From the NCBI RefSeq assembly GCF_013374115.1, contig NZ_AP022673.1, positions 3,896,456 through 3,960,455 of the forward strand: DNA of 64,000 nt. Direction: 5' to 3'. Below are positions 26,094-31,006 of this stretch, one piece after another (the stretch's first letter is position 1; the number at the start of each line of letters is the position of its first letter). The DNA comes from Sphingomonas sp. HMP9. GTDB lineage: Bacteria; Pseudomonadota; Alphaproteobacteria; Sphingomonadales; Sphingomonadaceae. A program made the position numbers and the translations under genes. A model generated the notes under the pieces. The model was given only the letters and a program-made list of their open reading frames with translations, was not told the DNA's origin and ran no database searches.

Positions 26094-26864
26094 TCAGCCG
26101 CGCACGGCTTCGGTCATCGGCTCCGACGTGATCGGGTAACCCAAGTCGTCCGGGATGCAGAGGTGTTCGACACCATCGCGGATTTCGGTCCACGGCGTCA
26201 CGGTGCGGATCGGATGCGCGCGCGCGTCGGCGATCGCGGCGTCGACATCGGCAAAGCGGGCCAGCCGCTCGAGATTGCGCCGGGTCGGGAAGATGATTGT
26301 CGCGCGTCCCGCATCGGCATCCGCCAGGACCTGCGTCGCCGTCGCCCAGAACAGCCGCACGTTCTCGGTCGCGTCGACCCGCGGCGCGGGGGCATTCGCC
26401 GGCAACCGCGCAAGATAGAAGCGCGTGTCGAAGATCCGCGCATGCGCATGCGCCGGCCGCCAGCGGGCAAAATACGCGAGCGCGGCAAGGTCGAGATCCG
26501 TGTCGGCTGCAGCCAGCGCTTCGCCGAGTGCGGTGCCCGCATGGAGTGCCGCGCGCAGTGCCTCGAACGCGGCGGGGGACGGCATTGGTGACAGGCCGAT
26601 GGGAAGGCCGGCCTCCTCGATCGTCTCGCGGATCGCGGCGATGCGCGCGGCGGTTTCGTCGTCGGGCGCGCCGAGCACTGCCGCCAGCGCATGATCGCCG
26701 GGATCGACCCGACCGCCGGGAAACACCAGCGCACCGCCCGCGAACGCCATGGCCTTGGCGCGCTCGACCATCAGCAGTTCGGGCTTGCCGCCGTCCGTCT
26801 CGCGAAAAATCACGAGCGTCGCGGCGGGTATCGCAGGGGTCAGGGGAGGCGCGTCGTCGTCCAT
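26094..26864 (-). CDS. NUDIX hydrolase
   Basis: A 256-aa NUDIX-fold protein. The NUDIX box is split by a longer loop than usual: GALVFPGGRVDPGD, then about 20 residues, then RETIEEAGLPIG with the metal-binding glutamates. The size and the C-terminal half resemble the NUDT19/acyl-CoA-type hydrolases. It should cleave a nucleoside diphosphate linked to another group; the substrate is not predictable. It lies 43 bases downstream of apbE and one base upstream of the extensin-like gene, on the same strand. Confidence 0.85.
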   Translation of the reverse strand: MDDDAPPLTPAIPAATLVIFRETDGGKPELLMVERAKAMAFAGGALVFPGGRVDPGDHALAAVLGAPDDETAARIAAIRETIEEAGLPIGLSPMPSPAAFEALRAALHAGTALGEALAAADTDLDLAALAYFARWRPAHAHARIFDTRFYLARLPANAPAPRVDATENVRLFWATATQVLADADAGRATIIFPTRRNLERLARFADVDAAIADARAHPIRTVTPWTEIRDGVEHLCIPDDLGYPITSEPMTEAVRG

Positions 26865-26907: not shown

Positions 26908-27882
26908 CTAGTCGACCAGCATCGCCGTGAGGGCAGGGGTCAGATACTCGCGCACGTCGCCGTCGATCAGGGTGACGATCCGCGCGGCGATCCGGCGATT
27001 CTCGGCCAGGGACAAGCCTTCGTCCGGGCCGAGCACCGTGAGCGCGGTCGCCCAGGCGTCGGCGTCCAGTGCAGTGGCGTGGATGACGCTGACCGAGACC
27101 ACGCCGGTGTCGATCGGACAGCCGGTGCGCGGATCGAGCGTGTGCGCGCCGCGGCGGTAGTCGCCGGAGGTCGCCACCGCGAGGCCGTGTAGTGCGACGC
27201 GAAGCGGCGGTAGCGTCAGGCCGGGCGGGCTTTCGAGATGGACCCACCAGGGATCGCCGTCCGGCCCGATCCCGCGCCCGACAAGCTCGCCGCCGATCTC
27301 GACCAGCGCGTTCCGGATGCCCGCGTCGTGCAGCAAGTCGGCGATCACGTCGACAGCATGGCCTTTCGCGATCCCGGACAGGTCTAGCGCTACGCCGCCG
27401 GGCTGGTGAAGATGCCCACCGGTGGTCGAAAGTGTCAGCCGCGAGCAGCCGGATGAGGCGCGTGCGGTTCCGCCCGCCCCCGCGTTCGGCGGCGCGGATA
27501 CGGTGAAGGGACCGAAACCCCAGGCATTGACGAGCGTGCCGATCGCCGGATCGAATGCGCCGTTGGTCGCCTCCGCGATCGCCAGGCCACGCGCCATGAC
27601 CCAAGCGAAATCGGGTGGGAGCGTCGTCCAGGTGCCGCGCGGCGACCGGTTGAAGCGCGAGAGCAGCGAATCCGGTGCCCAATGGCTCATCTCTGCAACC
27701 AGCCCGGCGAGTCGCGCGACGATGGCGGCGCGGACCGGCGTCGGATCGGTGCCGGCGGGGGCGGCGAAGCGTAGGCTCCACGACGTCCCCATCGTCTCGC
27801 CGTGCAGGTCGAGCAGCACTGCCGACGGATCGCGCGCCGCGAACGCCGCGGCGTCGATCGTCGGCGGCAGCGCGATCCTCAC
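26908..27882 (-). CDS. apbE: FAD:protein FMN transferase
   Basis: A 324-aa ApbE-family enzyme, which splits FAD and attaches FMN through a phosphoester to Thr/Ser of target proteins. Signature pieces are MGTSWSLRF (31-39), PDSLLSRFNRSP (71-82), DLSGIAKGHAVD (168-179), ATSGDYRR (238-245), DPRTG and the metal-binding DADAWATAL (274-282). The start is a GTG at 27882, 10 bases after the DUF4198 stop. Unlike many ApbE proteins it shows no signal peptide or lipobox at this start. It is the last of four closely spaced genes, and the DUF2271 gene in the unit carries a matching FMN-attachment motif. Confidence 0.92.
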   Translation of the reverse strand: MRIALPPTIDAAAFAARDPSAVLLDLHGETMGTSWSLRFAAPAGTDPTPVRAAIVARLAGLVAEMSHWAPDSLLSRFNRSPRGTWTTLPPDFAWVMARGLAIAEATNGAFDPAIGTLVNAWGFGPFTVSAPPNAGAGGTARASSGCSRLTLSTTGGHLHQPGGVALDLSGIAKGHAVDVIADLLHDAGIRNALVEIGGELVGRGIGPDGDPWWVHLESPPGLTLPPLRVALHGLAVATSGDYRRGAHTLDPRTGCPIDTGVVSVSVIHATALDADAWATALTVLGPDEGLSLAENRRIAARIVTLIDGDVREYLTPALTAMLVD

Positions 27883-27892
27883 GCCGGACGCA

Positions 27893-28747
27893 TCAGGGCG
27901 TGAGGACTTCGAGCGTCGTGACGTAGCTCATCCGGCGTTCGGTCGCACGCGGCGCGGTCGCCTTGGCGTCGGTCAGCGTGGCGTTGAGCCAGTACATCCC
28001 CGCAGTAGGCCATGAGACGCTCAGCACGCCATCCGCGCCGGTGGTCAGCTCGCGCGCGCCCTCGTCGTTGCGATACCGCTTGCCGCCTGGGATCACCGTG
28101 ACCTTCAGGCCGGACGCGGGCTTGCCGTCGACCAGGAAGCGGAACTTCGCGGTTTCGCCCGCCACCAGCTCGTCGGGGTGCGTGATCGGTGCGAACTCCA
28201 GGCCTTTGCCGGTCGTCTTGAAGACGGTGGTGGTCGGCGCGCCCGCGGTCACGAAGATCTCGTTGCGGCCCGAGACCTCGGTCACCTTCACGTCGGTCGC
28301 GTTGGCGGGGATATCCGCGACCGTCAGCGGAGCGGGCGCATTCGGCTGGGGCGGGCCGCGACGACCGCCGAGACGCTTCTCGACGCCATCGACCTTGAAG
28401 CTGCCCATGACGGCAGACATCTGCGTGCCGATCTTCCACGTGCCGGGCTTGTCGAGCTTCACGTCGAACACCGACCGATAGCGGCCCGTCGCGCCGTTCT
28501 GGAGAATGCCCTCGCTGCCGTCCGGCTGCCACACCTTCATGCCGTCGAGCCGGAGCGGCTGGTGATCGAAGAAGAACAGGTCGTTCGAGACCGCGGCGTC
28601 GACCGTCACCCAGCCGTCGGTCCCCGAGAACACGGTGGCGGACGGCAACAGCCACATACGGTGTGCCGACAGCCCGGCGGGAACCGACAACAGCGCCGCA
28701 GCGGTCATCAGGCGTGCCGAAAACGACTTCATGGCGAATGGCTTCAT
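27893..28747 (-). CDS. DUF4198 domain periplasmic protein
   Basis: A 284-aa exported protein. A signal peptide (residues 1-28, ending AGLSA) is followed by the DUF4198 start HRMWLLPSATVFSG and VTVDAAVSNDLFFFDHQPL. The C-terminal part is a beta-sandwich-like region with PDELVAGETAKFRFLVDGKP. Relatives are linked to metal, often iron or nickel/cobalt, handling in the periplasm; the exact role is unknown. An AAGGA site lies 7 bases before the ATG. It sits between the DUF2271 and ApbE genes with 11- and 10-base gaps. Confidence 0.85.
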   Translation of the reverse strand: MKPFAMKSFSARLMTAAALLSVPAGLSAHRMWLLPSATVFSGTDGWVTVDAAVSNDLFFFDHQPLRLDGMKVWQPDGSEGILQNGATGRYRSVFDVKLDKPGTWKIGTQMSAVMGSFKVDGVEKRLGGRRGPPQPNAPAPLTVADIPANATDVKVTEVSGRNEIFVTAGAPTTTVFKTTGKGLEFAPITHPDELVAGETAKFRFLVDGKPASGLKVTVIPGGKRYRNDEGARELTTGADGVLSVSWPTAGMYWLNATLTDAKATAPRATERRMSYVTTLEVLTP

Positions 28748-28758
28748 GACGTGATCCT

Positions 28759-29268
28759 TCAGCGGGCGGAAAGCGAGATGGCGCCGAGCTCGGTCTTGCC
28801 CGAGGTTCGGGCCCCGGCGGCGAGCGGTACGGAGACGAGTTCGCGACCGCCGGTTTCGCGGGCGGCCTCGACGTTGAGGACATACTGACCGGGCTTGAGG
28901 TCGGCGGGCAGGGGGATGGTGTATTGTCCCGGCGTCCGCGTCGCGCCGCTGATGCCGTCTGCGGGCATCGTCATGCTGCGGCCGCCCTTGCGCCACCATG
29001 CGCGAAGGTCCGCCAGCCATTTGGTGCCGGGGTCGTTCCCGCGCTTCTTCAGGTCGTACCAGACCGCGAGCGTCCGCGGCGTACCGCCACTGACCGGCTC
29101 CAGCCACACCGCGACATAGGGGCGATGATATTCGGCAACGTCGAGCCGCGGGATCGTGATCGTCACGGCGCCCGGCGGCGCGGCGTCGGCCGGCGACAGG
29201 AGGGCCGGCGAGAACAGGGCGGGTGCGGTGATCGCCCCGCCGAGCAACAGGAACGCGGTAGGACGCAT
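28759..29268 (-). CDS. DUF2271 protein with ApbE-type flavinylation motif
   Basis: A 169-aa exported protein. A signal peptide covers about residues 1-30 (ending SPADAA). The DUF2271 body includes RPYVAVWLEPVSGG and LAVWYDLKKRGNDPGTKWLADLRAWW. Residues 104-110 read DGISGAT, which fits the D-x-x-S-G-A-T consensus where ApbE links FMN to the Thr, here Thr110. I infer that this protein carries covalent FMN in the periplasm and passes electrons with the PepSY membrane protein encoded 11 bases upstream. Confidence 0.85.
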   Translation of the reverse strand: MRPTAFLLLGGAITAPALFSPALLSPADAAPPGAVTITIPRLDVAEYHRPYVAVWLEPVSGGTPRTLAVWYDLKKRGNDPGTKWLADLRAWWRKGGRSMTMPADGISGATRTPGQYTIPLPADLKPGQYVLNVEAARETGGRELVSVPLAAGARTSGKTELGAISLSAR

Positions 29269-29279
29269 GGCGAAACCCC

Positions 29280-29942
29280 TCAATGGACGAACAGGATGGC
29301 GAGCAAGACCGGCAGCGCGAGTCCGGCGGCGACGATCGGCCAGGTCGACGGCCGGTGCCGCGCGTGAAGCTGAAGCAGCAGGAGCCCAGTCAGCGTGAAC
29401 AGGATGCACGCGCCCGCGAAGACGTCGATGAACCAGAACCACGCCGCACCCGCGTTGCGCCCCTTGTGCAGGTCGTTCAGGTACGAGATCCAGCCGCGGT
29501 CGGTGGTCTCCGCCGTGATCGCCCCGGTCGCGCGCGCGATGCTGACCCAGCCATCGCCGCCAGGGCGGGGCAGCGCGACATAGGCGTCGCTGTCGGACCA
29601 TTCGACGGGCTTGCCGGCAGGATCGAGCCCGACCGCCGCTGCGACCGCCTTGGCGACGGGAATTGGGAGCGGCGCATCGGCACTATGCGGCGCACTGAGC
29701 ATCTGGAGAAGCGGCCGTGGCAATGTGCCGCTCTTTTCCACGACGATCGGTTTGGCGCCGATCGACGCGGCGTGATTGAGCGTGATCCCGGTGATCGCGA
29801 ACAGCAGCATCGCGGCCAGCGACAGTGCCGCGCTGATCCAGTGCCAGCTGTGCAATTGCTTGAGCCACCACCCCCGCCACTTGCGTTTGCGCCGGGTATT
29901 CGTCGCGGGCGACACGGAGATTTGGGACGAGTTCACACTCAA
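29280..29942 (-). CDS. PepSY-associated transmembrane protein
   Basis: A 220-aa membrane protein with one span near residues 35-57 and two at the C-terminus (about 165-187 and 198-218), enclosing a periplasmic PepSY-like loop. The N-terminal KQLHSWHWISAALSLAAM with its His residues is typical of PepSY-TM proteins thought to move electrons across the membrane. It is the first gene of the unit with DUF2271, DUF4198 and ApbE. A Fur-box-like site lies 36-50 bases before the start codon. Confidence 0.85.
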   Translation of the reverse strand: MSVNSSQISVSPATNTRRKRKWRGWWLKQLHSWHWISAALSLAAMLLFAITGITLNHAASIGAKPIVVEKSGTLPRPLLQMLSAPHSADAPLPIPVAKAVAAAVGLDPAGKPVEWSDSDAYVALPRPGGDGWVSIARATGAITAETTDRGWISYLNDLHKGRNAGAAWFWFIDVFAGACILFTLTGLLLLQLHARHRPSTWPIVAAGLALPVLLAILFVH

Positions 29943-29977: not shown

Positions 29978-29992
29978 TGAGAATAGTTAGCA
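29978..29992 (-). promoter_or_regulatory. Candidate Fur box before the PepSY-DUF2271-DUF4198-apbE unit
   Basis: TGAGAATAGTTAGCA matches 11 of the 14 defined positions of the 7-1-7 Fur consensus TGATAATnATTATCA. It sits 36-50 bases upstream of the PepSY start, where binding would block a promoter. This is a by-eye match in one place only, so iron regulation remains an inference. Confidence 0.5.
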
Positions 29993-30042: not shown

Positions 30043-30810
30043 TCAGTCGCCGCGGCGCGCGCGCTCGGCCATCTCGTTCAACTGCACCACGGCTTCCGGA
30101 AAGCGATGATCGGCTTCGGCGTTGCGCAAGGGGCGAACGCGTTCGACGAGGATCTCGTTCGGCGTCGGCTGCTGCGTCCAGAGCGCCATGACCTCGTCCG
30201 CAAATGCTTCCAGCGGCATGTAACCCGGGCGCGTCTCCTGCCCGGGGGTAAGCGCGGTCTGCACGCCGGGAGGCGCGATCTCTAGGACCTCGACCTTGCC
30301 GTCCAGGACTCGCCGCAGGCTGACGGTGTAGGAGTGTATGGCCGCCTTGGTCGCCGAATAGGTCGGCGCCGCGGTGAGTGGCACATAGGCCAGGCCCGAA
30401 GTCAGGTTGACGATCGTGCCGCCGGACTGGGCCGAGAGGTGGTCGACCAGCGCATTGGTCAACCGGATTGGCCCCAGCAGGTTCGTGACGATCGTCGCCT
30501 CGGCATCGGCGAGATCGCGGCGAGTCGAGGCATCCTCCAGCTTCATAATGCCGGCATTGTTGACCAGCACGTTGAGCGACGGATGCTCGGCGACCAGCCT
30601 CTGCGCGAAGTCTTCGATCGCGGCGGAATCGTCGATGTCGAGCGTCATCGCGGTCATGTTCTCGCGCCCGGCGATAGCCTCTTCGAGCGCCTCTCGACGC
30701 CGGCCGGCAACGATCACCGTGTTGCCCGCGTCGTGGAGGCGCTGCGCCAGCGCGGCGCCGATACCCGACCCGCCGCCGGTGATGAGGATGGTGTTGCCGG
30801 TCGGGTTCAT
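30043..30810 (-). CDS. Short-chain dehydrogenase/reductase (DltE-like)
   Basis: A 255-aa classical SDR. The cofactor loop is TGGGSGIG near residue 12, NNAG is in LNVLVNNAGIMK, and the catalytic YxxxK is in PTYSATKAAIHSY, preceded by a Ser-rich strand. The overall pattern resembles the DltE/YciK-like group acting on small or cell-envelope substrates; the substrate is unknown. GGAG precedes the ATG at 30810 by 7 bases. A stem-loop lies just past its stop at about 30008-30031, before the PepSY promoter. Confidence 0.88.
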   Translation of the reverse strand: MNPTGNTILITGGGSGIGAALAQRLHDAGNTVIVAGRRREALEEAIAGRENMTAMTLDIDDSAAIEDFAQRLVAEHPSLNVLVNNAGIMKLEDASTRRDLADAEATIVTNLLGPIRLTNALVDHLSAQSGGTIVNLTSGLAYVPLTAAPTYSATKAAIHSYTVSLRRVLDGKVEVLEIAPPGVQTALTPGQETRPGYMPLEAFADEVMALWTQQPTPNEILVERVRPLRNAEADHRFPEAVVQLNEMAERARRGD

Positions 30811-31006
30811 GCCGCGTCTCCTGGTGATAGCGGCCGTATAACGCAGCGACGCGTGTTCGGTGCCGTCCTGCATCACCGCTCGTCCTCGGTTGCCGCGCCT
30901 GTGGTCAAGCGATCATCGTCCCATCGGCTCGGACGACGACCCTCTCAGCTCGAGTGATAATGCGACGCTTGTGACGCGGGGCCGCCCCCGGTAGGTCGAA
31001 AGCATC

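Follow-up and report, generated by a model that had tools for sequence, protein, structure and literature searches.

Described systems and the Sphingomonas locus

Gene clusters that combine flavinylation with a PepSY-like membrane protein were described by Meheust et al. (2021, eLife, PMC8238504); this and the other papers given here by PMC number are represented by excerpts. A system was called PepSY-like when a PF03929 or PF16357 protein was in the cluster, and 3220 such clusters were counted, 2833 with DUF2271 and 1500 with DUF4198. Transmembrane electron transfer for iron reduction and assimilation was proposed for them, iron-transport genes being among their neighbors. In the same paper, the DUF2271 protein of Amantichitinum ursilacus was flavinylated by its ApbE, and changing the motif Thr to Ala abolished flavinylation. 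In Caulobacter crescentus, CC3059–CC3063 are repressed by Fur and induced by iron limitation, as seen by a Fur EMSA and by lacZ on the promoter (PMC3751524), and transposon insertions in CCNA_03155–03159 lower fitness in EDTA, an effect linked by the authors to iron (PMC11870441).

The locus analyzed here lies in a 64-kb stretch, hereafter the window, of the Sphingomonas sp. HMP9 genome (4.0 Mb, two contigs). It consists of four genes on the minus strand. The first encodes a PepSY_TM_like_2 membrane protein of 220 aa (29280–29942; PF16357, 252.6 bits, with PF03929 also over its cut-off), whose start codon is TTG or, alternatively, GTG at 29936. It is followed by an exported DUF2271 protein of 169 aa, the predicted covalent FMN carrier (28759–29268; PF10029, 132.3 bits for a cut-off of 27.3), by a secreted DUF4198 protein of 284 aa with its ATG at 28747 (27893–28747; PF10670, 182.6 bits), and by an ApbE FAD:protein FMN transferase of 324 aa with a GTG start (26908–27882; PF02424, 241.4 bits). 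All four Pfam assignments are well above cut-off. The intergenic gaps, taken from the sequence, are 11 bases between PepSY and DUF2271, 11 between DUF2271 and DUF4198, and 10 between DUF4198 and ApbE; the coordinates and the Pfam matches thus agree with the tight four-gene unit with gaps of 10–11 bases that the initial annotation had described. A short-chain dehydrogenase (30043–30876, minus strand) is the upstream neighbor of the unit, and a NUDIX protein (26094–26864) the downstream one.

With both PF16357 and PF03929, and a secreted DUF4198 protein besides, the window cluster falls within the published definition of a PepSY-like system, and it has in common with the Meheust clusters the four families, a DUF2271 protein with [S/T]GA[S/T], and a neighboring ApbE. 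The order transporter (PepSY), DUF2271, DUF4198, ApbE is also that of CC3059–CC3063; the fifth Caulobacter gene, the flavoprotein reductase CC3063, is not adjoining in Sphingomonas. The idea of the flavin chain as a new system was dropped, since the same cluster and its flavinylation are already published (PMC8238504). Sequence alone was enough to recover the published system here in a genome of the Sphingomonas type, and the remaining interest lies in the compartment of flavinylation and in a variant of the motif with Pro. Relative to the excerpted literature, a signal-less operon ApbE with an exported target and the Pro variant are new; neither is mentioned in the excerpts of PMC8238504.

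Conservation of the four-gene unit

Relatives were taken from two sets: the best 80 of 287 confirmed DUF2271 matches (named loci), and the best 30 of the matches in the window's own family, in which they occur in 91 of 298 genomes. Together these are the best 110 loci, and the DUF2271 alignment has 111 rows including the window protein. Neighboring gene clusters were named from one Pfam-scanned representative each. Among the best 80 of 287, the closest named relatives were mostly Sphingomonas, with 81%–91% identity for the first 14 loci.

All four genes were present in 101 of the best 110 loci, and in every one of these (101/101) their order and strand were the same. Of the nine incomplete loci, four (L020, L032, L077, and L110) had contig ends beside the operon and one (L018) had broken genes. 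The other four (L058, L060, L067, and L076), from Zhongshania, Agitococcus, and Pseudoalteromonas, had PepSY-DUF2271-DUF4198 with no ApbE within the flank, so that their ApbE, if any, is encoded elsewhere; a diflavin reductase was downstream in three of them. At L018 (5941–8034, Sphingomonas sp. PP-F2F-A104-K0414), PepSY had no match, and the DUF4198 and ApbE genes were fragmented; this operon is a decaying or misassembled copy.

The DUF2271 protein and its flavinylation motif

Translation of 29268–28759 (minus strand) confirmed exactly that residues 104–110 of DUF2271 read DGISGAT (28939–28959, minus strand), with Thr110 as the predicted FMN acceptor. The loose pattern D.[ILVMTSA][STPA][GS]A[TS] had five matches in the six frames of the window, among which DGISGAT was the sole one with [ST]GA[ST]. 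By a rough estimate, about one in 1000 proteins of the size of DUF2271 would contain the strict pattern D-x-x-[ST]-G-A-[ST] by chance. The initial annotation had held that its proposal would fall if the motif were not conserved in DUF2271 homologs beside ApbE; the residue aligned with Thr110 was Thr in 111 of 111 rows (window plus best 110 loci), and [ST]GA[ST] was kept in 91 of them. The covalent flavoprotein of the neighboring ApbE that had been proposed also matches the published model and the biochemistry of a homolog (PMC8238504). The Sphingomonas DUF2271 protein is predicted to be a covalent FMN carrier.

Of the 20 rows outside [ST]GA[ST], two had SSAT, and 18 had Pro where the motif has Ala (SGPT, TQPT, and similar). 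The latter were L055, L071, L077, L084, L086–L088, L092, L093, L095–L097, L101, L102, L106, L107, L110, and L111, and 14 of the 18 belong to a single clade within the window's family. On a tree built by a quick method from 110 rows without the motif columns, the Ala/Pro state changed at least four times by parsimony. Because 20 of 111 rows fail the motif, scans with strict [ST]GA[ST] would miss members of DUF2271.

The protein has an N-terminal hydrophobic signal peptide, predicted to be of the Sec type. Tat export as a rule was rejected, as RR or KR stood near the n-region in at most seven of 110 signal peptides, and in two of those seven (L093 and L106) the RR lies N-terminal to the probable Met. 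No FMN_bind or DUF3570 protein was found in the Sphingomonas sp. HMP9 genome, so that, of these three families of exported substrates, DUF2271 alone was seen there. The structure model of DUF2271 was poor (mean pLDDT 68), and a search of solved structures by sequence gave no significant relative (best E 1.1).

PepSY protein, electron donor, and DUF4198

Five His residues of the PepSY protein are highly conserved: His34, 57, 159, 193, and 220 were kept in 108, 104, 109, 108, and 108 of 109 rows, respectively (best 110 loci). In the topology that the sequence suggests, two helices would have His34 and His193 at their cytosolic ends and His57 and His159 at their periplasmic ends, a placement that fits two bis-His hemes as described for Pseudomonas FoxB (7ABW; PMC11334425), a PepSY-type protein that likewise has paired conserved His for two hemes. 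FoxB differs in that the operon PepSY is paired with a separate flavoprotein, and the kinship rests on the family name and the histidines, with no sequence match; solved structures searched by sequence gave no significant relative of PepSY either (best E 0.2). The PepSY protein is likely a di-heme transmembrane electron carrier, and the role across the membrane that it had been given from the sequence agrees with the published model (PMC8238504).

No NAD-binding domain or donor reductase is encoded in the window unit; only some PepSY-like systems have one, and it is not a required feature. Among the best 80 of 287 loci, a diflavin reductase was downstream in 24, in 21 behind ApbE and in three behind DUF4198 without ApbE. 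None was beside the operon in the 42 loci L004–L045, of which L020, L030, and L032 are on contigs that end too early to tell, and the window's lineage differs in this from the Meheust clusters. A diflavin reductase elsewhere in the genome was considered as donor and not found: a genome search with one diflavin reductase as query, run with no positive control, gave no match, and the single flavodoxin-type match of the genome is in an open frame of 264 codons, too short for a diflavin reductase.

The signal peptide of DUF4198 ends in ...LSA, and the predicted mature N-terminus is His29, a putative metal ligand. This residue was kept in 102 of 111 rows (window plus best 110 loci; it is number 30 in the alignment, where the row of this protein has one extra leading residue). 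The mature N-terminal His is shared with IsDUF4198, a member of the family that binds Ni(II) with a Kd of 18 nM (PMC12537917). DUF4198 had been proposed as a partner in electron transfer; rather than as a proven partner, we see it as a secreted protein that binds metal and has His at its N-terminus. The solved chains that a profile of 18 operon DUF4198 proteins matched were 9mhk and 9mhi (E 7e-9 and 1e-8; window span 27893–28663), a match that is firm with the profile only. The chains 9mhi–9mho are labeled phosphoribosylglycinamide formyltransferase, which is at odds with the DUF4198 family.

Fur-box-like site and electron acceptor

A Fur-box-like 7-1-7 palindrome, TGAGAATAGTTAGCA, lies at 29978–29992 (no strand assigned), 35 bases 5' of the PepSY start codon. 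With three mismatches in 14 positions, it is the only match to TGATAATNATTATCA with three or fewer mismatches in the 64 kb, where 0.28 would be expected. Among the best 110 loci, a Fur-box-like site with up to four mismatches was found 5' of PepSY in 51 of 106, compared with 4.7% of 2120 control regions of the same length from the same loci; since the loci are related, these are not 106 independent tests. The Sphingomonas sp. HMP9 genome encodes a clear Fur family protein and FeoB. Co-occurrence with FeoB was also tried as a test of the iron acceptor. FeoB was present in 87 of 91 family genomes with DUF2271 and in 182 of 207 without (p = 0.054), and the test is uninformative because 269 of the 298 family genomes have it.

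In the best 80 of 287 loci, TonB-receptor-like genes were near the operon in 31, and genes for PKHD-type 2OG-Fe(II) oxygenases and TonB were near it in other loci. No TonB receptor was found among the eight scanned of the 27 window ORFs of at least 420 aa; the only one above 621 aa is a proline dehydrogenase.

Iron as the acceptor is supported by the Fur-box-like site and, by analogy, by the published Caulobacter data. Very probably, the locus represents the published PepSY/DUF2271/DUF4198/ApbE system in a Sphingomonas-type form, and its most likely function is to reduce ferric iron or ferric chelates in the periplasm, under repression by Fur. The motif, the gene order, their conservation, the Fur-like site, the catalytic residues of ApbE, and its lack of a signal-like segment are observed here; the flavinylation of DUF2271, the control by Fur, and the EDTA phenotype were demonstrated by others in homologs. 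With FAD as the source, ApbE would place FMN on Thr110 of DUF2271. A cytosolic or quinol donor would supply electrons, which would cross the inner membrane via the two PepSY hemes, reduce the FMN on periplasmic DUF2271, and then pass to Fe(III), while DUF4198 may bind or hand over metal through its N-terminal His, and the FeoB encoded in the genome could take up the Fe(II); here we infer the heme wiring, the acceptor, and the role of DUF4198, as well as the compartment of flavinylation treated below.

The same flavinylated DUF2271 could instead serve another periplasmic acceptor, such as nickel or another metal complex, an oxidized thiol, or a quinone, with Fur reflecting a co-regulated need. 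The binding of Ni(II) at 18 nM by a DUF4198 family member (PMC12537917) fits this, as do the weak association with FeoB and the appearance of Caulobacter CC3060 and CC3061, with values of 0.50 and 0.41, in an expression table for a zur mutant (PMC4176598). It is, however, quite unlikely in view of the Fur-box-like sites 5' of the operon in about half of the loci (51/106, best 110 loci), of the EDTA phenotype tied by its authors to iron (PMC11870441), and of the iron-transport neighbors of the published clusters (PMC8238504).

The operon ApbE has no recognizable signal peptide

By alignment and spacing, Ser239, His247, and Asp275 are the catalytic Ser-His-Asp of the window ApbE, and they were invariant in 66 rows; in the V. 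cholerae enzyme the catalytic residues are 241/257/285 (PMC12052999). The model of the protein had a pLDDT of 95.8, and its closest fold was Vibrio cholerae ApbE (6nxi, TM 0.86). The window ApbE starts MRIALPPTIDAAAFAARDPSAVLLDLHGETMGTSW, and, whichever start codon is taken, its open frame shows no signal-like segment ahead of the fold. Most ApbEs, though not all, have an export signal or lipobox.

Two tests were applied to the N-termini. The first asked for a 12-residue segment with a mean hydropathy of at least 2.0 within the 45 residues before the fold. In the best 110 loci this value was reached by none of 102 operon ApbEs, by 90 of 110 DUF4198 proteins, and by 49 of 110 DUF2271 proteins, the last count meaning that the cut misses weak signals; the maximum was 1.28 for the window ApbE (locus L002) versus 2.68 for E. 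coli Ftp. The second test required a stretch of 14 or more residues free of D, E, K, R, H, N, and Q; it was passed by 11 of 103 ApbEs, 95 of 110 DUF4198 proteins (eight of the 15 misses being badly anchored rows), and 102 of 110 DUF2271 proteins. The 11 ApbEs that passed were Pro- and Ala-rich, and none reached a hydropathy of 2.0. As a control, 28 ApbE loci from 40 genomes of the phylum were used, five of them without a score. A hydropathy of 2.0 was reached by 18 of the 21 scored ApbEs without DUF2271 or DUF4198 neighbors and by neither of the two with such neighbors. Of the three failures, two (L160 and L166) had their anchor within the domain, and the third (L148) had a short N-terminus and no signal.

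The N-terminus of the operon ApbEs mostly reads [RHQE]-[IVL]-x-[IVL]-Pro, with Pro6 in 99 of 104 rows (best 110 loci). Because it is conserved and modeled as a strand (residues 1–20 at pLDDT 91–93), it seems to belong to the enzyme itself. In a census of 20 of the 91 DUF2271-bearing family genomes, chosen mostly for few contigs, there were 21 ApbE matches, and 19 genomes had a single ApbE. The N-terminus was readable in 18 of the 21, none of which reached a hydropathy of 2.0. Thus, no exported ApbE for flavinylation outside is visible in these genomes.

In one DUF2271-bearing genome, G071, the single ApbE is about 0.4 Mb from DUF2271 and has the same kind of signal-less N-terminus. A second and distant ApbE-like gene is present in the Sphingomonas sp. 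HMP9 genome (L003 1198–2052; match C1:516885–517352). It encodes 284 aa with no signal-like segment and sits between frames that resemble, by eye, Gfo/Idh-type oxidoreductases.

Compartment of flavinylation

FMN is probably attached to DUF2271 in the cytosol, before export, since the operon ApbE lacks a signal peptide, DUF2271 has a predicted Sec-type one, and these genomes show no exported ApbE. In full, the operon ApbE would be a cytosolic enzyme in which a RIALP-type strand replaces the signal peptide, and it would use cytosolic FAD to flavinylate the linear heptapeptide of the unfolded DUF2271 precursor, which would then pass through Sec; we put the chances of this full account at about even. 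Sizable rigid adducts pass SecYEG. Going by its title, a 2011 study by Bonardi reportedly deals with the passage of conjugated preproteins through SecYEG.

As a flavinylation tag, the heptapeptide is enough by itself, and signal-less ApbEs exist, for a cytosolic substrate (PMC12052999). ApbEs without a signal peptide include the cytoplasmic ApbE of Klebsiella, whose soluble fumarate reductase stays in the cytosol (PMC12052999), whereas DUF2271 has a signal peptide, and the ApbE homolog Pden_3291 of Paracoccus, likewise signal-less and predicted to be cytoplasmic (PMC7660919). As is predicted for DUF2271, NqrC and RnfG (FMN_bind) are exported proteins to whose motif Thr ApbE attaches FMN; they belong to a different carrier family, and their ApbE is a periplasmic lipoprotein (PMC12052999), unlike the operon ApbE without a signal peptide. 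A signal-less ApbE with an exported substrate is not described in the excerpts of PMC12052999, PMC11334425, PMC7921117, and PMC7660919 from the open-license PMC literature.

Alternatively, ApbE could reach the periplasm by a route without a recognizable signal peptide and flavinylate there, as for NqrC. This would be in line with the export of the other ApbEs of the phylum (hydrophobic N-terminus in 18 of 21 scored without DUF2271/DUF4198 neighbors), with the existence of ApbE-DUF2271 fusions (PMC8238504), and with the A. ursilacus ApbE of the published proof, which is termed signal peptide-truncated in the methods of that paper (PMC8238504), so that the signal-less rule may fail elsewhere. 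We nevertheless regard a periplasmic ApbE as unlikely at this locus, because a hydropathy of 2.0 was reached by none of the 102 operon ApbEs in the 45 residues before the fold, and because the RIALP-type N-terminal strand is conserved (Pro6 in 99 of 104) and modeled within the fold at pLDDT 91–93. It could also be argued that the operon ApbE modifies some cytosolic protein and that exported DUF2271 is not flavinylated in vivo, given that the enzyme is predicted to be cytosolic with DUF2271 outside, and that in the published flavinylation the two proteins, each lacking its signal peptide, were expressed together in E. coli (PMC8238504). Against this, all 111 DUF2271 rows (window plus best 110 loci) have the acceptor Thr, the gene order is fixed in 101 of 101 complete loci, and Thr110 comes last in the heptapeptide that a review gives for ApbE (PMC12052999), which together make a purely cytosolic target highly improbable.

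If flavinylation in the cytosol is correct, a periplasmic electron carrier would receive its covalent flavin before export, with no need for export of FAD, and this would be a kind of cofactor loading of Sec substrates absent from the excerpted literature. Exported ApbE and exported FAD would no longer be required for extracytosolic flavinylation in PepSY clusters, a change whose scope would be the class of 3220 published clusters (PMC8238504) or at least the part sampled here, and searches that demand a signal peptide in ApbE would miss members.

Start codons of the operon ApbEs

In 16 of 103 operon ApbE frames, there was no ATG, GTG, or TTG 18–60 codons before the conserved Gly28. With the exception of the broken L018, all of these frames (L023, L030, L040, L044, L086, L090, L091, L093, L099, L103, L108, L109, L110, L112, and L113) hold CTGA, in which a CTG overlaps the TGA that apparently ends DUF4198. 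This overlap suggests a CTG start of ApbE coupled to the upstream stop.
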